Shown: positions 1,243-14,522 of the stretch, piece by piece
How the letters are laid out: every line of letters starts with the position of its first letter
How positions within the stretch are numbered: position 1 is the stretch's first letter
From: a virus
Reading direction: 5' to 3' (one strand)
Virus record (IMG/VR): IMGVR_UViG_3300042860_002348
Span: 1 to 22,320 of that record
DNA: 22,320 bases
The notes under the pieces: model-generated
What the model saw: only the letters and a program-made list of their open reading frames with translations
Databases searched by the model: none
Told to the model about the DNA's origin: nothing
Translations under genes and position numbers: made by a program

Positions 1243-1340
1243 AGGCGTGCGGCGGTGTGCTCTAGAACCATAGCGCACCAGTTCCGGTTTTGCTGCGCTA
1301 CGATGGGGGGCAATTCACAAAACCGCCTGCCCGCACCCCC
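1243..1340. promoter_or_regulatory. Divergent intergenic region upstream of the sigma gene
   Basis: This 98-base stretch separates the starts of two divergent genes, so promoters for both strands are expected here. On the plus strand, TGCGCTACGAT around 1292-1302 is a weak extended -10-like sequence without a convincing -35 box. On the minus strand, TTGTGAA (plus-strand ttcacaa near 1315) matches the upstream box of the duplicated leaders at 3114 and 4572, but the rest of that leader is absent. The exact start sites cannot be set from the sequence alone. Confidence 0.3.
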
Positions 1341-2390
1341 ATGAGCCAGAAATGGTGGCTGGACCAAGCCGGGCGGGTGCCGCTGCTGACACCTGCAGAG
1401 GAGATCGAGCTGGGAACGCTCATCCAGCGGTGGGTTACGCATCCGCAACCGGTACCGCCTGGCATCCGCAGGGCAGGGCAGCGGGCTAGGGAGCGGTTTA
1501 TCAAGGCGAATCTGCGGTTGGCGGCAGGGTTCGTGAGTAATCGGTGCCACCGGCTGGCCAAGCAGCACTCAGAGGAAGATCTGATCCAGGCGGCGAACGA
1601 GGGTCTGATCCGTGCTGTGGAGCGGTTTGACCCAGCGCGGGGGTATCGATTCAGCACGTATGCGTACTGGTGGATACGGCAGGCGGTGAACCGGTATGTG
1701 GACCTGTATGGGCGGTCGATTCAGATCCCTGGCAGCCATAGCCAGCACCTGTACCGGCTGGCTGGTATCAGGCGGCGGCTGCAGCGTGAGCTGAATCGTG
1801 ATCCCACCCGCGAGGAACTGGCGACCGAGCTGGGGGTATCGATGGCGGTGCTGGAGCAGGTATTGGCCAACGGCCGCAGCGTCGCCAGCTTGGATGAGGT
1901 GGTTGGTGATGACGAACTGACGCTGGGCGATCAGGTGCCGCATTGGGACCAGACGCCAGAGGACCAGGAGGAACAGCAGGAGCGATGGAAGCAGGCGGAA
2001 CAGCTGCGGCAGTTGATCGGGCAGCTGGGGAGACAGGACCAGCGGTTGCTGTCGCTGGCGTGGGGATTGGACGGCGAGGAACTGAAGCCGGGGGAGATCG
2101 GGCAGCGAGAGGGGCTGGCGGCCAGGGCAGTGTCGGTGCGGCTGGCAGAACTGCAGGCAGCGCTACGAACCGCATCGGTGCAGCTGGTGTTGGTGGCGGT
2201 GGAGCGGAAGAAACCGGAGCCGAGGGATCGGAGCAGGCGGCGGCGGGAACGGCCAGATCAGCTGGTGCTGGTGCCGGTCGAGAGGGTGAAGCCCGAGCCC
2301 CGGGCGCTGCGCAGGGTCGGAGGATTCCCCAGGAACTGGACCCGTCTCAGCGAGCGGCTGCGGGTCGCTGCTGCTGGGGGGAGTTGGTGA
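1341..2390 (+). CDS. Sigma-70 family RNA polymerase sigma factor, 349 aa
   Basis: Directs RNA polymerase to promoters. The start at ATG 1341 matches where cyanobacterial sigma factors begin region 1.2 (WWLDQAGRVPLLTPAEEIEL, residues 5-24). Region 2 spans about residues 50-123 and is well kept: LIQAANEGLIRAVERFDP, then GYRFSTYAYWWIRQAV, the core-binding and -10-recognition/melting part. Region 3 follows (about 130-185, with DPTREELATELGVS). Region 4 (about 217-276) keeps GEIGQREGL, but the recognition helix, normally SRERVRQIE-like, reads AARAVSVRLAE. So -35 recognition is probably changed or lost. Residues 277-349 are an extra basic tail with a 26-residue tandem repeat. It is the only plus-strand gene in a minus-strand phage region. 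Membership of the sigma-70 family is secure. Whether it serves the phage or is a carried host-type gene is inference. Confidence 0.93.
   Translation: MSQKWWLDQAGRVPLLTPAEEIELGTLIQRWVTHPQPVPPGIRRAGQRARERFIKANLRLAAGFVSNRCHRLAKQHSEEDLIQAANEGLIRAVERFDPARGYRFSTYAYWWIRQAVNRYVDLYGRSIQIPGSHSQHLYRLAGIRRRLQRELNRDPTREELATELGVSMAVLEQVLANGRSVASLDEVVGDDELTLGDQVPHWDQTPEDQEEQQERWKQAEQLRQLIGQLGRQDQRLLSLAWGLDGEELKPGEIGQREGLAARAVSVRLAELQAALRTASVQLVLVAVERKKPEPRDRSRRRRERPDQLVLVPVERVKPEPRALRRVGGFPRNWTRLSERLRVAAAGGSW
2181..2303 (+). repeat. In-frame tandem repeat in the sigma factor C-terminal tail
   Basis: Two copies of a 15-residue unit, QLVLVAVERKKPEPR (2181-2225) and QLVLVPVERVKPEPR (2259-2303), are offset by exactly 78 bases (26 codons), separated by an arginine-rich linker DRSRRRRERPD. 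The DNA copies are similar but not identical, so the duplication is not brand new. It lies just after conserved region 4 of the sigma factor. Confidence 0.85.
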
Positions 2391-2486: not shown

Positions 2487-2699
2487 CTATCGGTTGCAGG
2501 CTACGCGGGCACGCGCAGCGGCTGCTTCCATCTGCAAGGCCTTGAGCCTGATGCGCTGCTGCTCGCGGCGCTCCACCTGCTCGGCCGAGTTGTACCACTT
2601 CGACGCGGCGCCGTGGACTGGGCAGTCCGGGCTCCAGTTGCGATGATCGGAGGCTTTCATGCCGATCCTGATGTGGCCGCAGGTGCAGTCAGTTTCCAT
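2487..2699 (-). CDS. Small Cys/His-rich protein, 70 aa
   Basis: Starts at ATG 2699 and ends in TAG. The N-terminal half carries CTCGH (C5, C7, H9), H19 and DCPVHG (C26, H29). This Cys/His spacing is seen in small phage proteins that probably bind one zinc ion. The C-terminal half (residues 38-68) is a charged helix (AEQVERREQQRIRLKALQ), suggesting a helical or coiled-coil tail. It sits alone between a terminator-like hairpin upstream and the convergent sigma gene, and a 13-bp direct repeat overlaps its last codons and the bases just before its ATG. With the hairpin in front, it may have weak or separate transcription. Function unknown. Confidence 0.65.
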   Translation of the reverse strand: METDCTCGHIRIGMKASDHRNWSPDCPVHGAASKWYNSAEQVERREQQRIRLKALQMEAAAARARVACNR

Positions 2700-2712
2700 G
2701 GTTGCAGGCTAC
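2492..2712. repeat. 13-bp direct repeat bracketing the 70-aa gene
   Basis: The sequence ggttgcaggctac occurs at 2492-2504 (inside the last codons) and again at 2700-2712 (immediately before the ATG), 208 bases apart. The identity is exact over 13 bases. It could be a trace of insertion or recombination of the small gene, or chance. Confidence 0.6.
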
Positions 2713-2738
2713 AGAAAAGCCCGGCGCTGGGGCCGGGC
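2712..2738 (-). terminator. Rho-independent terminator-like hairpin
   Basis: On the minus strand, GCCCGGC (2738-2732) pairs with GCCGGGC (2725-2719) around a 6-base loop (2731-2726), followed at once by TTTT (2718-2715) and TCTG. This is a 7-bp GC stem with a short T run. It follows the stop of the 88-aa gene (stop at 2764-2762) in the direction of transcription, so it probably ends the transcript that starts at the 3029-3120 leader. Confidence 0.7.
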
Positions 2739-3727: not shown

Positions 3728-3951
3728 CCCTGATCTCCTGATGATGGTGTGCGTGATCTCCGCCTGCGCCGCTTCCTCTCCGCATCCGCCGCTCTCCCCG
3801 CTGGCGATCGCCGCCAGCACAGCGCGCACAGCGGCAGGCTGCGGGTGCTCACCACGGTGCAGCCGCACTGAGGGCAGACGGGCAGGGCGGGTAGGTCGCC
3901 CGCCAAACGGAGGCGATGGCGGCGGGTTTTTTCGGCGGGGGTTAGGGGCAT
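3724..3951 (-). CDS. Zinc-ribbon-like basic protein, 75 aa
   Basis: Starts at ATG 3951, overlapping the upstream stop by one base (TGATG), and its own stop overlaps the next start by 4 bases. The sequence has a basic N-terminus (PAEKTRRHRLRLAG), then CPQCGC (C26, C29, C31) and LCALC (C42, C45), which together make a CxxC...CxxC zinc-ribbon pattern. An arginine-rich tail follows (ERKRRRRRSRT). Such small basic zinc-ribbon proteins often bind nucleic acid, but that role is inferred only from charge and cysteines. Confidence 0.65.
   Translation of the reverse strand: MPLTPAEKTRRHRLRLAGDLPALPVCPQCGCTVVSTRSLPLCALCWRRSPAGRAADAERKRRRRRSRTPSSGDQG
3728..3742 (-). promoter_or_regulatory. Shine-Dalgarno cassette, copy 2
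   Basis: Minus-strand ATCAGGAGATCAGG, then one base and ATG 3727. It lies inside the coding region of the overlapping 75-aa gene and fixes the start of the 117-aa gene. Identical over 14 bases to the cassette at 3379-3392. Confidence 0.75.
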
Positions 3952-4175
3952 CAGTCCCCACCCTCAATCGCATCGGCCAGCGCCAGGAACTGGGCACGGT
4001 GGCGGGCTGTGGTGGGACGGGTGGCGTCGCGGGACGGATCACCCAGCACCACCTCCACGGCGGCGCGGATGATGTTGCCGGCATCGGCGTCCCAGCCGAC
4101 GAAGGCCTCACGGGTTCCTTGTAGCAGCGCCTCAGCGAACAGTGCTCGGCGCTCGGCGCGGGTCGGGATTTGCAT
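3951..4175 (-). CDS. Small helical hypothetical protein, 74 aa
   Basis: The start is placed at ATG 4175 (MQIPTRAERRALFAEALLQ). The open frame extends to a GTG at 4241, but the added part is proline-rich and overlaps the end of the 63-aa gene. The protein is mostly helical with alanine-rich segments (NIIRAAVEVVLGDP, HRAQFLALADAIEGGD) and no cysteines or membrane span. The stop overlaps the next start by one base, which supports the frame. No Shine-Dalgarno is visible at 4175, so the exact start is uncertain. Family not recognised. Confidence 0.55.
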   Translation of the reverse strand: MQIPTRAERRALFAEALLQGTREAFVGWDADAGNIIRAAVEVVLGDPSRDATRPTTARHRAQFLALADAIEGGD

Positions 4176-4231
4176 GGCAGATGGTGGCGAGTGGATGGGC
4201 GCCGGATGGGCTCCGGCGGGCCGTGGGGTGG

Positions 4232-4423
4232 TCAGGCCCACTCAAGGGCCTTGGCCTCAAACCATGCGATTGCATGGTCAAGGGTGGTGAATGATTTGAA
4301 TGTTGTCCACCGAGAGCACACCGAGAATTGGAGGCGCTTTGCCTCTGGGTGATGGAGCACAAAGAGGCGCATATCGGCGCCGGTGGTGGGGCTGCCGGTG
4401 ATGGTGGAGCGGATGGTGGTCAT
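4232..4423 (-). CDS. Small hypothetical protein, 63 aa, behind leader copy 2
   Basis: Starts at ATG 4423 immediately after CCACTGACAGCT, the same pre-start sequence as at ATG 3028, and ends at TGA 4234-4232. The longer frame to 4561 runs through the conserved leader and is rejected. The protein reads MRLFVLHHPEAKRLQFSVC followed by TLDHAIAWFEAKALEWA, a strand-then-helix pattern that could be a small alpha/beta fold. No membrane segment. It is the first gene of the short operon headed by leader copy 2. The two genes directly behind the two leaders (63 and 88 aa) are not clearly related in sequence. Confidence 0.6.
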   Translation of the reverse strand: MTTIRSTITGSPTTGADMRLFVLHHPEAKRLQFSVCSRWTTFKSFTTLDHAIAWFEAKALEWA

Positions 4424-4578
4424 AGCTGTCAGTGGCGATGGAGTGGAGCGGGGAATGCCGACGATCTGGCAGGCTCCCGTGGGCCAGGGGCCGGAGCCCC
4501 GGAGGAGGTTTCCCTCCCGATGCCCACACTGTAACCGCTTGCGGACACCACGGCCACCCATCAGGGGGTCAGTTCACA
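4424..4578 (-). promoter_or_regulatory. Conserved leader, copy 2 (promoter-like core plus 5' hairpin)
   Basis: Same order as copy 1. TGTGAAC (4578-4572) is followed by 22 bases, then the 20-base core (4549-4530), then a -10-like TACAGT. A hairpin follows, GGAGG-GAAA-CCTCC (4517-4504), whose loop fits the GNRA tetraloop pattern. About 60 bases absent from copy 1 (including GGGGC/GCCCC) come next, then the conserved CCACTGACAGCT before ATG 4423. Identical spacing between the upstream box and the core in both copies argues for a functional unit. No good -35 is seen. Confidence 0.6.
4530..4549. repeat. 20-bp exact repeat, copy 2
   Basis: Identical to 3072-3091, with the ccgc-tt-gcgg near-palindrome in the centre. 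It is flanked by further weaker similarity on both sides (gttcaca upstream, ggagg/cctcc downstream), so the repeated unit is longer than 20 bases but diverged. Confidence 0.9.
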
Positions 4579-4583
4579 ATTCG

Positions 4584-4718
4584 TCACCGACACATCCAGA
4601 TCGCGTGCCACGTCCCGCCCATCAGCAGCGCCCCGGCCAGCCCTGACCACAGCGCCACCCGCAGCTCATGCTCACGGATCGCGGCGGCCACCAGCCGCTG
4701 CACGTCCTCCCGGCTCAC
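4584..4718 (-). CDS. Single-pass membrane micro-protein, 44 aa
   Basis: A GTG at 4718 overlaps the TGA of the 124-aa gene by 4 bases (GTGA) and opens a 44-codon frame ending in TGA. The N-terminal half is an amphipathic, charged helix (REDVQRLVAAAIREHELR). Residues 21-42 are hydrophobic (VALWSGLAGALLMGGTWHAIW), a likely membrane span, and the chain ends with a short CR tail. The overlap and clean topology make it a credible gene despite its size. It lies at the end of the lysis-side operon, directly upstream of leader copy 2. It may be a small holin-like or regulatory membrane protein, but nothing in the sequence settles this. Confidence 0.55.
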   Translation of the reverse strand: MSREDVQRLVAAAIREHELRVALWSGLAGALLMGGTWHAIWMCR

Positions 4719-5089
4719 CTGCCCAGCACCTGCCGGGCCCAGCGCTGCGCCCACCCCTCGCGGCGGCCCCGGTTCATCGCCAGCAGCTCGCGGGCCATCT
4801 GCCGGTGCTCATTGCTCGGGGCGCCGAACGCGGGGGCATCACCCAGAGCGTGCTCCACCATCAGATTGGCCGCGGCCCGCTGCAGCTCGGCGATCATGTG
4901 CTCTTGCTGGTGGCACACCTGGATCAGCTCATCGCACCACTGGGCCAGCTCATCGCGGCTGAGCCGGGCGGCCCTCTGCCGCTGGCTCTGCATCATCGCC
5001 TGCCTCGACAGGCTGAGGGTGAGATCGAGGCCGAGCATGACAGCCGCTGCAGAGATTCCCCAGTCTGGCGACGATCGGCCGTTCGTCAC
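4715..5089 (-). CDS. Helical hypothetical protein, up to 124 aa
   Basis: The frame can start at GTG 5089 or at ATG 5038 (residue 18, MLGLDLTLSLSRQ). Neither has a convincing Shine-Dalgarno sequence. Most of the protein is predicted helix by eye: a glutamine/arginine-rich part (QSQRQRAARLSRDELAQWCDELIQVCHQQ), then an alanine-rich helix, then a C-terminal tryptophan/arginine segment. Two cysteines lie in the central helix. No enzyme motif is visible. It follows the HNH gene by about 70 bases and its stop overlaps the 44-aa membrane ORF. Function unknown. Confidence 0.55.
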   Translation of the reverse strand: MTNGRSSPDWGISAAAVMLGLDLTLSLSRQAMMQSQRQRAARLSRDELAQWCDELIQVCHQQEHMIAELQRAAANLMVEHALGDAPAFGAPSNEHRQMARELLAMNRGRREGWAQRWARQVLGR

Positions 5090-5159
5090 TGTTGCAACGG
5101 ATCCCAGAGGGTCAACCTGCTGGGTGGTGGTGGGGCTGGGCCAGCGGATCAGGTGCTAC

Positions 5160-5519
5160 TCAGGGCACCATGCCATCGACGTTCTGACCATGATGCTCGC
5201 CAGCCGGGGGATTCCCACCCCCTAGCCACCCATCTATCCGCCCCTCCCGCTCCGGGCAGTGCCAGGCCTGGGCCCGGAACCACTCCCGCCAGTCGGTGGA
5301 GCTCTTCGCCCCGTTGCACCGGCGGCAGGCCGGCACTAGGTTCGCGGCCACCGTCAGCCCGCCCCTGGAGCGGGGCAGAACGTGGTCAAGGGTGTCGGCC
5401 GGGTCGGCGCAGTACGCGCACTGACTGGCCCAGGCCTCGAAGATTCGGCGCCGGAACCTGGCTTTGGTGACTCGCTTGGGCTGGAGCTCGGTTTGGTCGA
5501 TCTCGTGGCCGAAAGGCAT
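5160..5519 (-). CDS. HNH endonuclease, 119 aa
   Basis: A small metal-dependent DNA endonuclease. Two CxxC pairs for a structural zinc (C34, C37 and C65, C68) bracket the catalytic stretch LDHVLPRSRGG (D45, H46) and N60 in NLVPACRRCN, which is the full HNH pattern. The start at ATG 5519 overlaps the endolysin stop by one base. Phage HNH proteins of this size either help terminase cut DNA at packaging or act as free-standing homing nucleases. No terminase gene is in the window, so the role here stays open. Its tight overlap with the lysis genes suggests it is a fixed part of the operon rather than a recent insertion. Confidence 0.92.
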   Translation of the reverse strand: MPFGHEIDQTELQPKRVTKARFRRRIFEAWASQCAYCADPADTLDHVLPRSRGGLTVAANLVPACRRCNGAKSSTDWREWFRAQAWHCPEREGRIDGWLGGGNPPAGEHHGQNVDGMVP

Positions 5520-6793
5520 CAGTGCTCAGCGATGATTGCCCATCCCGTGTTGCTGCCCTCCACCATCCACCGTGGGCCGAAGTTCCGCCGGCTGTACCTG
5601 GCGAACCGGGCCACGCCGCCCAGGGTCGCGCCGCTCACAAGGTCGGCCTCACCGAAGGGGTCGTGAACGATCAGGTGATCCTTCGTGTAGCCCACCACGA
5701 TCAGCCAGTGGCCGCCGCCGGTCGGTGCCGACACAGGGCCTCGATGCAGGAACCCGACCGGCACGGGCACGCCGGCGTTGATCTGCTGCTCCAGCGTGGC
5801 GAACCCGGCCACCTTGGTGAACCGGGCCTTGATGCCGTAGCTGCTCAGCGCCCGGATCTGCGCGGTCGGGTCAGTTGTGTCGCCGTAGGACTGAACCCTC
5901 TTCAGGTATTGATCGTCGCCGTTGGCGCCTCGCAGGGTGCCGGGCTTGAGGTACTGCAGCAGCATGGCGCAGGAACTGCTGAAGCACATCCGGGCGGCTT
6001 GGGCACGATCGGCAGAGTCCATCTGCGCGAACCAGGGCACCTGCAGCGGGTTGCCGTAGCCGGTCTGCTGCTGCAGCTGCACCGGAGGGCGGCCGGCCAC
6101 CGTCAGCCGCCCAGACTCCACCAACCCCCACACGCGGCGCGCCTCAGCCTGCCGGCGGTCAAGGTGCGGCACGCCAGGGCGGAAGTAGACCTCGCTGAAA
6201 TAGGCCGCCGCTCTGGCTGGGTCCATCCCTGCGGGCCGATCCTCGAACACCCGAGTCCAGCCGATCAGCGAGCCCTGCGGCGGATCGTGCAGGCCGGCGT
6301 ACTCCTCAGCGAAATACAGTTGCTGCCAGGCGTTGCCGCCCGGGTTAATCCCTTTGGCGATGGCAGCGGCTCGGGCTTTGTCGTAGGCGGTGCGCCGAAC
6401 GCCGGTGTATTGCATCGCCCCGCGACCGGCACCAGAGCCGGCCTCGATCACGTCGAGCTTGTCAAGCAAGGGGTGGCCGGTTTCGACGATCACGCAGCCG
6501 ATGAAACCGCACGCCTCAGCTACGGTCAGCGGACTGATCTTGTTTTGGCTGAGACGCGAGACCTCGGGCCCCGTCAGGAATGTCAGCCATGATTGAAGAT
6601 TGGCCAGCTCGTTCTGAGCCTCAGGTCTCGGCGCCGCAGGGCTCCCCTGTGCCCTCCACAGCTCGGTGAACTCCTGGCGTTGCTCATCGCTCAGCGACTC
6701 ATCCAGCGCCTGCAGGGCAGCCAGCTGATGCGGGGTGATGGTGCCGGCGCGGGCGAGATGCTCAGCAGCAGCGCGGACGGTGGCGAAGGTCAT
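5519..6793 (-). CDS. Two-domain endolysin: lysozyme-like plus C39-like peptidase, 424 aa
   Basis: The start at ATG 6793 overlaps the upstream stop by 4 bases (ATGA). The longer frame to 7033 only shadows that gene. Residues 1-60 are a helical N-terminus. Residues about 85-235 look like a lysozyme or chitinase-type fold: E104 in VIVETG, E117, and GRGAMQYTG (123-131), similar to the GRG-xxQ-TG turn of such enzymes. Residues about 245-424 match papain-like C39 peptidases: C270 in MCFSSSCAML, H362 in GGGHWLIVVGY, and D378 in LIVHDPFG. The protein would cut both the sugar backbone and peptide bonds of the cell wall at host lysis. No signal peptide is seen, so export would depend on a holin. The C39-like part is clearer than the lysozyme-like part. 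A virion-associated wall hydrolase is the alternative. Confidence 0.82.
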   Translation of the reverse strand: MTFATVRAAAEHLARAGTITPHQLAALQALDESLSDEQRQEFTELWRAQGSPAAPRPEAQNELANLQSWLTFLTGPEVSRLSQNKISPLTVAEACGFIGCVIVETGHPLLDKLDVIEAGSGAGRGAMQYTGVRRTAYDKARAAAIAKGINPGGNAWQQLYFAEEYAGLHDPPQGSLIGWTRVFEDRPAGMDPARAAAYFSEVYFRPGVPHLDRRQAEARRVWGLVESGRLTVAGRPPVQLQQQTGYGNPLQVPWFAQMDSADRAQAARMCFSSSCAMLLQYLKPGTLRGANGDDQYLKRVQSYGDTTDPTAQIRALSSYGIKARFTKVAGFATLEQQINAGVPVPVGFLHRGPVSAPTGGGHWLIVVGYTKDHLIVHDPFGEADLVSGATLGGVARFARYSRRNFGPRWMVEGSNTGWAIIAEH

Positions 6794-7668
6794 GTGATGG
6801 AGTCGATGAAGTTCCGATCGGGCCGCAGGTTGTCGATGTTGGCGAGCATCGTTCCCCGGAACCCATCCATCAGCCAGATGGGGCGGTTGGCCTTGGCTGC
6901 AGTCTGCAGGCCGGAGACGTTCGACCGCAGCGCCCAGCTGTGGTCGGTGTCGAACACCTGCGGACCCTTGAATCCGGCGACGGGGGCAGGCCCGCCAGGG
7001 GCGATCCAGTCGGCACCGGTGCGGCGCATCCATTGCTGGCCGCTGGAGGGGCTCGCGCCACGGGCATAGCTGACGCCCACGGGTGTATCGGTGAGGCGCT
7101 GGACCTGCTTGACCACCCAGCCCTGAAACCAGCCGGTGCTGGGCCTGGTCAATTCGTTCCCGACCTCGAACAGCACATTGTCATAGCCCTCCAGGGTGCG
7201 CACCATCCGCTTGATGTGCGCCTTCTGGTAGCGATTCCAGGGGCCGCGCGCGTGAACGTCGTGGTGGGTCTTCGGGCCATGCCCGCGGAAGGGGTGGAAC
7301 TCCCAGGCCCTCGGGAACAGATCGGGCAGGCTGCCCTCAAACAACACCACGCCGGTCACCATGTCCCGGCGGTCGGCCTCTGCAACGGCCTTCTCCATGC
7401 GCCGGTAGAACTTCCCGTTCAGGCTGAGGTCTTCCTTCCACGGCCCGCCCTTCACGCGGATCAGGCCGGGATCAGCGCCAACGAAAGGCGGGCTGGAGTT
7501 GACGAACGCCCGCGTCTCAATCGTCCATAGCCGGGTGAAGTTGCCGGTGAGCCGGTCGATCGGGGTGCGGTTCCCCGCCACCGGCTGCACCACGTCCCAG
7601 GTGTGGCTGCCGGCCAGCGTGCGGGCCTTGCCGTTAATCAGAAACCGGTCGCCCTTGACGGTGATCAT
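6790..7668 (-). CDS. Clan-A glycoside hydrolase-like protein (GH5-type barrel), 292 aa
   Basis: A probable polysaccharide-degrading enzyme of TIM-barrel type. The N-terminus VKGDRFLINGKARTLAGSHTW (residues 4-24) is the usual first strand of this clan. VLFEVGNEL (165-173) holds the N171-E172 acid/base pair. DTDHSW (240-245) sits where the barrel has its conserved histidine. The last active-site strand reads RPIWLMDG (262-269), with Asp at 268 where classical members have the nucleophile Glu. From memory, some uncharacterised family members also carry Asp here, so activity cannot be judged. It is translationally coupled to the small membrane gene before it and to the endolysin after it. Likely jobs are breaking host sheath or capsule, or assisting lysis. 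Confidence 0.8.
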   Translation of the reverse strand: MITVKGDRFLINGKARTLAGSHTWDVVQPVAGNRTPIDRLTGNFTRLWTIETRAFVNSSPPFVGADPGLIRVKGGPWKEDLSLNGKFYRRMEKAVAEADRRDMVTGVVLFEGSLPDLFPRAWEFHPFRGHGPKTHHDVHARGPWNRYQKAHIKRMVRTLEGYDNVLFEVGNELTRPSTGWFQGWVVKQVQRLTDTPVGVSYARGASPSSGQQWMRRTGADWIAPGGPAPVAGFKGPQVFDTDHSWALRSNVSGLQTAAKANRPIWLMDGFRGTMLANIDNLRPDRNFIDSIT

Positions 7669-10672: not shown

Positions 10673-13120
10673 TCAGGCTAGAGACTGCAGCGCTGCCTCC
10701 AGCGCGGCGATCCTGGCCTCATGGTCGTTTGACACGTTGATCAGGTGCACGCCGAACCGGTCGTAGCTGACGCCCTCCGCCTGGCCTCCGACGCCCCACA
10801 TCACCATCTCCGGTGCATACTCCGCCACCTCTTCAGCGATCAGGCCCCACACCCTGATGGTCGGATCGTCGCTGGTGTTCTCCGGGTTCGGCAGGTAGCT
10901 CACCGGCCTGGTGGCTGACAGGATCCGGCGGCTTTCGGCCAGCGGTGCTGTCTCAATTTCGACCTTGTACTGCCGCGATGACGTGACCCGCTGCACCTGA
11001 TCGTTGGCGGTGTTCAGGTAGACGTTGGCGCTCACCCCCGTGGTGGTGTTGGTGCGGATGCCGGAGCTGAAGACGGTGCCGTTGGCGGTGAAGGTGCCAT
11101 CGCTCACCAGCGCGTTGGAGAACGTCTTGGCCCCGCCGATAGTCTGCGCGCCGGTGGTGTAGACGCCGTTGGTCACAGTGGCAGCGTTGCCGGTGATGTT
11201 GGTGGACCATGCCAGGCCCGTGGCCGTGCTGCTGTCTGCCACCAGCACCTGACCATTGGTGCCCACTGCCAGCTTGGTGAGGGTCGTAGCGGCGCTGGCC
11301 GCCAGCAGATCGCCTTTGGTGTAGCTGGCGAGGTTGGTGCCGCCCCTGGCCACCGCCAGGGTGCCGCTGGTCAGGTTGCTGGCGTTGCGGCATTCGGTGC
11401 TGACCTCCTCAATCGCCGCCTGCACGTTGGTGGCGATGATCGCGCCAGTGGCGACGAAATCCACCCCGCTGGCGGTCTGGGTGGTGTAGCCCGCCGATGT
11501 ATCCACCTCAACCCAGGCCGTGCCGGTGGAAAGCAGCAGATCGGGCGGGGCCAGCGCAACGGCGGGTGCGGGGCTGGTCCCTGTGCCGGACTCGCTGACC
11601 ACCAGGTAGTAGCCCGAGTTGGCCGCCGCAGCGGCAGGCAGCGCGTTGCCGACCACCAGACCCAGTGCTGTGCCCTCGGCGGTGGTGCTGGCTACTTCGT
11701 TGTCGGAGGCGTCATAGGTGCCGGCGAACTTGACCGCACCGGTGCTGATCCCGATCGGCTGCCAGACGTTGCCATCCCACATGAAGAAGGCTTTGTCGAT
11801 CGGGTTGAAGTGCAACTGGCTGATGTACTCAGCAACGGGGATCGCCTCGCCGATCTTCCCCACGCTGTAATCCGCCAGCTTGGCCCCGGTCACGGCGTCG
11901 TTCGCCAGTCGATCGGTCGGGAACTCGCCGGCCGTGATCTTGCTGGCGTTCAGCTCGGGGATGTTCGCCTCTGGGATGGTCGGCGCCAGATGCTGCTGCC
12001 ATTCGCTGCCGGTCCAGGTCCACTCCACACCCGTGGCGGCGTTGAACCACTGCTGCCCCACGAACGCCCCGCTACCGGACGGCGATCCGTTGCTCACCAC
12101 GGCAGAGGATTGATCCGCCAGTTTGGCGGCGGTGATCGCGTCGTCCTTTACCGCACCGGTGGGAATGCTCAGCGCGGCGTACTTCAGCTCGGTGATCACT
12201 CCATCGGCGATCGTTGCAGCGAATGTCCCGGTGCCGGTGCCGGTCACGTCACCGGTGAGGGTGATGGTCTGATCGCCGGTGTTGGTGCCCGAGCTGGTGC
12301 CCGAGAACGTCGAGCCGTTCGTCCAGGTGCCGGATGCCACCGCCAGCGTGCCCAGTCCCAGCGTGCTGCGTTGCGCTGCAGCATCGACACCAGCGATCAA
12401 GGCGCGGCCGGCAGCGGTCAGCGGCACCTCTTCAACTGGGCCCGCACCGGCGGAGCTGCGGCCCAACAGTCGATCAGTGGTGGAGACGTTCTGGATGCGG
12501 TCGTAGGTGACAGCACCGGCGGCGATCTTGGCCGTGGCTACCGCACCGGCGCCCAGCTTGGCCTCCAGTACCGCCCCATCAGCCAGCTTGCCGCTGGTCA
12601 CATTCAGGTCAGCCAGCGCGGCGGTGTTCACCGATCCGGCGGCGTAGGCGGCTGAGCCCAGCGGCGTCACCTTTGCCGTGGTCACAGCGCCGTCAGCCAG
12701 CTTCCCGGTGGTCACCTGCAGATCGCCGATGCCGGCGGTTGGCATCACCACCTGCTGGAATGCTGCGCCGTCCCACACCTGCAGATTGCCGGTGCCGCTG
12801 TGCAGCCACCCGCGCCCGCGATGGTTCCCCGTGCTAGGGGCTGTGACCGCAACGGCGGTTGCTGCATCGGCGGCCAGCTTGGCGGCGGTGAGCGCGCCAT
12901 CGCTGATAGCCACGGCGCCCAGCTTGGTCGTGCTGCCCTGATCCAGCTTGGCTAGGTCAATCTCGCCGGCGTCCACCAGGTCGATGCCGGCGGCGACCAG
13001 ATCCTTCAGCGTGATCCGCTTCGTCTCGCTGGCGGAAATGTCGGCGATGGGCACCGCATCATTGGCCGCCGCGCCAGCCTTCGAGAGCGGCGTGAGCTGG
13101 GTTATCCGCTGATCAGCCAA
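10673..13120 (-). CDS. Tail fibre protein with C-terminal S74 intramolecular chaperone domain, 815 aa
   Basis: A receptor-binding or side tail fibre. An in-frame stop lies four codons upstream and no ATG or GTG is near, so the start is TTG 13120. The N-terminus ADQRITQLTPLSKAG is typical of fibre attachment ends, and GAGG lies a few bases upstream. The shaft contains many imperfect copies of a KLADGAVTTAKV-like unit (for example residues about 75-200 and 320-345), as in trimeric beta-helical or coiled shafts. Residues about 713-815 form a Peptidase_S74 domain: S714 and K719 at the Ser-x4-Lys spacing of the self-cleavage dyad, then RVWGLIAEEVAEYAPEMV and SYDRFGVHLINVSNDHEARIAALEA. This domain helps fold the trimer and then cuts itself off. 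Confidence 0.92.
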   Translation of the reverse strand: MADQRITQLTPLSKAGAAANDAVPIADISASETKRITLKDLVAAGIDLVDAGEIDLAKLDQGSTTKLGAVAISDGALTAAKLAADAATAVAVTAPSTGNHRGRGWLHSGTGNLQVWDGAAFQQVVMPTAGIGDLQVTTGKLADGAVTTAKVTPLGSAAYAAGSVNTAALADLNVTSGKLADGAVLEAKLGAGAVATAKIAAGAVTYDRIQNVSTTDRLLGRSSAGAGPVEEVPLTAAGRALIAGVDAAAQRSTLGLGTLAVASGTWTNGSTFSGTSSGTNTGDQTITLTGDVTGTGTGTFAATIADGVITELKYAALSIPTGAVKDDAITAAKLADQSSAVVSNGSPSGSGAFVGQQWFNAATGVEWTWTGSEWQQHLAPTIPEANIPELNASKITAGEFPTDRLANDAVTGAKLADYSVGKIGEAIPVAEYISQLHFNPIDKAFFMWDGNVWQPIGISTGAVKFAGTYDASDNEVASTTAEGTALGLVVGNALPAAAAANSGYYLVVSESGTGTSPAPAVALAPPDLLLSTGTAWVEVDTSAGYTTQTASGVDFVATGAIIATNVQAAIEEVSTECRNASNLTSGTLAVARGGTNLASYTKGDLLAASAATTLTKLAVGTNGQVLVADSSTATGLAWSTNITGNAATVTNGVYTTGAQTIGGAKTFSNALVSDGTFTANGTVFSSGIRTNTTTGVSANVYLNTANDQVQRVTSSRQYKVEIETAPLAESRRILSATRPVSYLPNPENTSDDPTIRVWGLIAEEVAEYAPEMVMWGVGGQAEGVSYDRFGVHLINVSNDHEARIAALEAALQSLA

Positions 13121-13167
13121 GGGTGCGCCTCACCGCGACCGTCCACAGGCTCAGGCTACGGACTGGC

Positions 13168-14492: not shown

Positions 14493-14522
14493 CAGCTGGC
14501 GCCCTCCTGCATCTCAGGCTAC

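Follow-up and report, generated by a model that had tools for sequence, protein, structure and literature searches.

A full-length cyanosiphovirus sigma factor with an altered -35-reading helix: a candidate late sigma that may be tethered to the host sliding clamp

We analyzed a 22.3-kb virus record (the window) in which most genes serve tail and lysis functions and lie on the - strand; flanked by these, in the opposite direction, is a gene for a 349-aa sigma-70 factor (table 1). On balance, we favor the reading that this gene encodes a late sigma factor which reads promoters without a -35 element and is probably anchored to the sliding clamp of the host, in the manner of T4 gp55 and gp45 but with different parts. 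Other genes recognized in the window by Pfam include an HNH endonuclease (5160-5519) and a single protein that combines Phage_lysozyme2 and Peptidase_C39_2 (5519-7033).

The open frame of the sigma gene spans positions 1290-2390, and the ATG at 1341 falls where region 1.2 begins (MSQKWWLDQAGRVPLLTPAEEIELG). Pfam matches above the cut-off were obtained for Sigma70_r1_2 (8e-7), Sigma70_r2 (2e-16), and Sigma70_r3 (7e-12), and none for Sigma70_r4. Region 4 is nevertheless still present, as its helices appear in an AlphaFold2 model. Alignment of the region 4.2 helix without gaps (host EIGRQINVSRERVRQLEAKAILKLR, window EIGQREGLAARAVSVRLAELQAALR) placed AARAVSVRL where the host has SRERVRQLE, with the recognition residues replaced. 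The frame, the Pfam matches, and this alignment confirm what an earlier note had described, namely a sigma-70 factor on the opposite strand with AARAVSVRLAE at the -35-reading helix. Judged from its residues, the protein appears to lack canonical -35 reading despite having region 4. The same note had placed region 2 close to ordinary cyanobacterial sigmas, which holds except that the end of region 2.4 and region 3.0 diverge at the extended -10 reading site (window RSIQIPGSHSQHL, host RTIRLPIHISEKL). Residues H455 and E458 of sigma-70, in the E. coli numbering that we take to apply here, read the extended -10 element. Their equivalents in the host are lost in the phages that bear the promoter-like motif described below (window IPGSHSQ, host LPIHISE) and are retained in phages S-CBS1 and S-CBS3.

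Table 1. Positions of the sigma gene, its parts, and candidate promoter sites in the window
Feature	Position	Strand	Basis or remark
Sigma-70 factor gene, 349 aa	1341..2390	+	S-LBS1 homologue, 67% identity
Sigma region 1.2, residues 7-31	1359..1433	+	Pfam PF00140
Sigma region 2, residues 54-120, with -10-reading YAYWWIRQ helix	1500..1700	+	Pfam PF04542
IQIPGSHSQ, residues 127-135, end of region 2.4 and region 3.0; sigma-70 H455/E458 equivalents replaced	1719..1745	+	Alignment
Sigma region 3, residues 136-208	1746..1964	+	Pfam PF04539
Sigma region 4, about residues 210-286; modelled helical, without Pfam Sigma70_r4 match	1968..2198	+	
Altered -35-reading helix AARAVSVRLAE, residues 260-270	2118..2150	+	Gap-free alignment to host SRERVRQLE
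Clamp-binding-like motif 1, QLVLVAV, residues 281-287	2181..2201	+	Duplicated unit
Clamp-binding-like motif 2, QLVLVPV, residues 307-313	2259..2279	+	Second copy of 57-nt repeat, 78-nt spacing; tail disordered in model
Sigma upstream region with TACGAT -10-like box; candidate host-sigma early promoter	1279..1340	+	Equivalent to TATRRT boxes conserved upstream of relatives' sigma genes
TCCGTAGCCTGA, full match to candidate late promoter, gap between tail genes	13151..13162	-	
TCTCTAGCCTGA, candidate late promoter at gene junction	10673..10684	-	
TAGCCTGA, candidate late promoter between J-like and major tail protein genes	14514..14521	-	
TCTGTAGCCTG, candidate late promoter; ATG of 2487-2699 ORF just downstream	2705..2715	-	
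TAGCCTG inside 3' end of ORF	2497..2503	-	Probably not a promoter

Among cultured phages, Synechococcus phage S-LBS1 is the nearest relative; its sigma (ATS93205.1) shows 67% identity over 81%, and the gene occupies the same locus, where it converges with the lysis module and diverges from gp157. The altered helix, mostly STRALEVRL or a variant of it, was also found in about 40 relatives from viral contigs at 54-73% identity; these relatives, S-LBS1 included, are cyanosiphoviruses that have both the helix and the locus in common, and recurrence of the gene at one locus in related phages, which the earlier note had proposed to look for, is thus observed. A tree built on regions 1.2-3 separated the window clade (100/100) from host sigmas and put it outside the host group 2 sigmas, the placement that the note had left to phylogeny. 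A wider group of 25 rows (94/82), also outside host sigmas, holds altered-helix, tailed sigmas. Host group 2 sigmas share regions 1.2, 2, and 3 with the window protein; they differ in having a canonical 4.2 helix and no tail, and the best host matches reach 34-43% identity. The exception, at 56%, is a window-clade sigma (L086) on a short 5.6-kb contig of a Synechococcaceae MAG, which groups with phages and represents either a prophage or a co-binned phage. S-CBS1, S-CBS3, and KBS-S-2A carry more distant sigmas, located close to the lysis module or at the same junction of early and late genes; these have an intact helix of SRER or SREA type, keep the E458 equivalent, and group apart from the window clade, and only the KBS group among them has a clamp-like tail. 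The earlier statement that full sigma-70 genes are uncommon in siphoviruses is therefore not borne out, since S-LBS1 and these three phages each have one at a similar place. Among cyanophages in general, the presence of a sigma gene is a common feature (65 of 153 genomes by one review, PMC10452541). Two further arrangements were noticed among the contigs. L036, L037, and L038 (about 3914-5925) carry a tandem sigma pair, one with an altered helix and a QLSLFAA tail and the other tailless with a canonical SRERIRQRE, and the sigma of viral contig L055 is nearly identical to a Prochlorococcus sigma, which suggests that this contig is probably host DNA within the viral collection.

A candidate target of the sigma was found on the late strand. 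The word TAGCCTG was first spotted by eye in intergenic gaps of the window and S-LBS1 and counted afterwards on the late and the other strand of 17 contigs (window, S-LBS1, and 15 relatives), where it occurred 65 times on the late strand versus 11 on the other; without G011 and G018, the counts were 64 versus 4 in 15 contigs. None of the other 64 possible TANNNTG words is as strongly biased toward the late strand, and the same holds in comparison with 57 TAG-containing 7-mers of similar total. Aligned sites gave TCCRTAGCCTGA on the late strand, with no sequence information from -45 to -7 and no signal at -35. The TCCR of this motif lies at the extended -10, the element read by H455 and E458 in sigma-70. 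The extended pattern TYYVTAGCCTG (T[CT][CT][ACG]TAGCCTG) was found 35 times on the late strand and never on the other; as the contigs and clade members share ancestry, all these site counts overstate independence. In nine further, held-out contigs, the extended pattern again occurred on the late strand alone (18 vs. 0; 16 vs. 0 in contexts unseen before, P-value = 3e-5) and plain TAGCCTG was weaker (29 vs. 9); this set is not fully blind, because two of its contigs (G037 and G051) came from a pattern scan of viral contigs with the motif. That scan returned many chance matches, and the sigma was present in 8 of 40 longer contigs, these two being new.

An ATG opening an ORF of at least 60 codons lies 3-9 nt downstream of 19 of the 65 late-strand sites, always at 5 or 6 nt, compared with 13 of 363 other TANNNTG words at that spacing (P-value = 1.8e-9). 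Transcripts from such sites would start near the ATG and hence be leaderless. TAGCCTG is rare in host strands (4 copies in 519 kb), and phages with other sigma types show no bias (late/other: S-CBS1 2/0, S-CBS3 0/1, KBS 0/0). The bias is also absent in G011, G013, and G018. Within the window clade, the sigmas of G011 and G013 (L024 and L034) are each other's sisters, and a different box may serve their lineage. When the weight matrix was relaxed, it shifted toward CAGCCTG, a word common in coding sequence, and the strand bias disappeared, so the strict word was retained. Exact repeats within single genomes revealed nothing besides the motif, and TATAAATA-like T4 late boxes were in no clear excess.

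The other distinctive part of the protein, which the earlier note did not mention, is its C terminus. Host sigmas end a few residues past region 4, whereas sigmas of the window clade continue beyond it: VQLVLVAV is followed by a basic linker and, close to the end, by another QLxL; in the window the QLVLV unit is doubled as a 57-nt repeat with a spacing of 78. Other related sigmas end in EQLSLFAA, GTQLALFGPLE, GEQLRLF, GQLALPLV, QPTLPLML, or QPSFW, the motif being kept while linkers vary. The bacterial beta-clamp-binding consensus is QL[S/D]LF, or more loosely QxxLF, with variants such as QLSLPL and the QLVLGL of Pol IV, and is often C-terminal (PMC12309361; PMC3716654; PMC4549789). QLSLF, QLALF, QLRLF, and QLALPL of the altered-helix clade match this consensus, and the tail motifs agree at the sequence level with known clamp binders in both consensus and C-terminal position; the two QLVLV copies of the window are internal and lack the aromatic residue of QLxLF. 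Within the last 16 residues, QL.L was present in 37 of 130 viral sigmas, 14 of 1532 other viral ORFs, and none of 79 host sigmas, and QL.LF in 6, 1, and 0 of the same sets; these two patterns are nearer the published consensus than a broad tail expression that was devised after the tails had been inspected. In the AlphaFold2 model (mean pLDDT 78.8, pTM 0.42), residues after about 284 are disordered. The helix change and the tail occur together across the clade, and host sigmas keep SRERVRQLE without a tail. KBS-like sigmas combine a clamp-like tail with an intact helix, indicating that the two traits are separable. Because the N-terminal domain of a phage DnaN was not found in 24 relatives, some of them fragments, the likely partner of the tail is the host clamp. 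At the DNA level, the 3' end of the sigma gene (2175-2390) is more conserved against relatives than the body (pS 0.25 vs. 0.62), reflecting either recombination or constraint on the DNA. A different conserved C-terminal motif, SSSL[IT]WGW[GS], was seen with altered 4.2 helices in L059, L064, L066, L071, L079, and their relatives.

A GCACC-TATRRT box was also considered as the target of the phage sigma. It is found only upstream of the sigma gene and at the early divergent promoter of S-LBS1, never upstream of late genes, and was therefore taken to be of early, host type. In the S-LBS1 record (L082), two divergent promoter regions (31804-31899 and 22952-23040) have CCCTACCCC..CATACCG..GCACCC-TATRRT in common and are probably early promoters. 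The same record has repeated CTGCCTAACCTC upstream of the terminase genes (34236-34641), within a duplicated stretch.

Three other explanations were weighed. That the altered helix contacts the -35 region differently was the proposal of the earlier note, and conservation of STRALEVRL within the window clade, with a dN/dS of about 0.2 in region 4, does indicate that the helix is still under selection. We nevertheless regard the reading of a new -35 sequence as highly improbable, since the logo is blank from -45 to -7 and G017, G019, and G020 share the motif despite quite different 4.2 helices; the clade seems to have abandoned -35 reading rather than re-targeted it. TAGCCTG might instead be a signal for translation, processing, or binding of another protein, with the sigma serving TATRRT-type promoters upstream of itself and of helicase/primase genes. 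The location of the sites at gene junctions would suit this explanation, which we consider quite unlikely: the key sigma-70 positions T-12, A-11, and T-7 are kept together with G-6, the word does not pair with the anti-Shine-Dalgarno sequence and is nearly absent from host loci, and the spacing of 5-6 nt to ATG, as well as cases with AGGAGG instead, suits a -10 box.

The third explanation accepts that the sigma reads TCCRTAGCCTGA without a -35 element, as an extended -10 factor, and assigns the tail another role, such as a degron, a docking motif for some other protein, or a contact with polymerase. The promoter evidence holds independently of the clamp, the AA or VA at the end of some tails resembles ssrA-type degrons, and dN/dS is higher in the tail than in the body (0.41-0.46 vs. 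about 0.2). On the other hand, the ends ELL, RLF, SFW, LPLV, and LPLML are not explained by a degron, and QLxL[F/L/PL] fits the clamp consensus throughout, so we consider this explanation rather unlikely.

A reasonable hypothesis for the favored late, clamp-tethered sigma is as follows. The factor would probably be expressed from a host-sigma-type early promoter with a TATRRT box and would displace the host sigma on host RNA polymerase. Through region 2 and the changed 2.4/3.0 segment, it would then read T-16 C C R T-12 A G C C T-7 G A before late genes. No -35 box would be used, and the -35-reading helix could therefore have drifted. In place of the -35 contact, the flexible tail at the C terminus would probably provide the upstream hold, its QLxL motifs docking on DnaN, the sliding clamp of the host; late transcription would thereby be coupled to replication of the phage DNA, as it is by gp55 and gp45 in T4. 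With good confidence, on the basis of co-occurrence, we regard the motif as the promoter that this sigma uses. Binding of the tail to the host clamp is suggested by its motifs and appears reasonably likely, and dependence of activation on replication, which draws on the T4 analogy, is put at an even chance. The suggestion of the earlier note that the sigma redirects host polymerase to phage promoters is likely to be right, given a phage-specific, promoter-like motif on the late strand and a helix altered across the clade.

T4 late promoters show no -35 conservation, and gp55 and gp33 bear C-terminal clamp-binding motifs (PMC2988020; PMC7892883). By analogy with gp55/gp33/gp45, the window protein would be a phage sigma-like factor acting on host RNA polymerase; its candidate late promoters show a -10-type box and no signal at -35, and its flexible tail carries a putative clamp-binding motif at the C terminus, as in gp55. 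Unlike gp55, which has region 2 only and no region 4, it is a full sigma with regions 1.2-4; its motif is of the bacterial beta-clamp type, its candidate promoter is a different one, and its presumed partner is a host rather than a phage clamp such as gp45. The S-LBS1 sigma resembles it in locus, altered helix, two QLVLV motifs, and late TAGCCTG motifs, and has a shorter tail; the part of its published description consulted presents it only as a divergent RpoD and does not discuss there the helix, tail, or promoters (PMC6157547).

Clamp-activated transcription has been called unique to T4-related phages (PMC2988020), and we found no paper on a clamp-binding sigma outside T4 in the open-access literature. 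We tentatively suggest, at slightly less than even confidence, a second and separately evolved replication-coupled late transcription, in which a full-length sigma-70 swapped -35 recognition for docking on the host beta clamp and serves -35-less promoters, some giving leaderless late mRNAs. If this is true, the same solution would have arisen independently from an ordinary sigma and the host clamp, and would thus be one that recurs; the system would also offer a simple test of sigma function after the loss of -35 recognition. The cultured relative S-LBS1 makes the hypothesis testable. It would also name the late promoters of a widespread freshwater cyanophage group, to which this virus of freshwater picocyanobacteria belongs.
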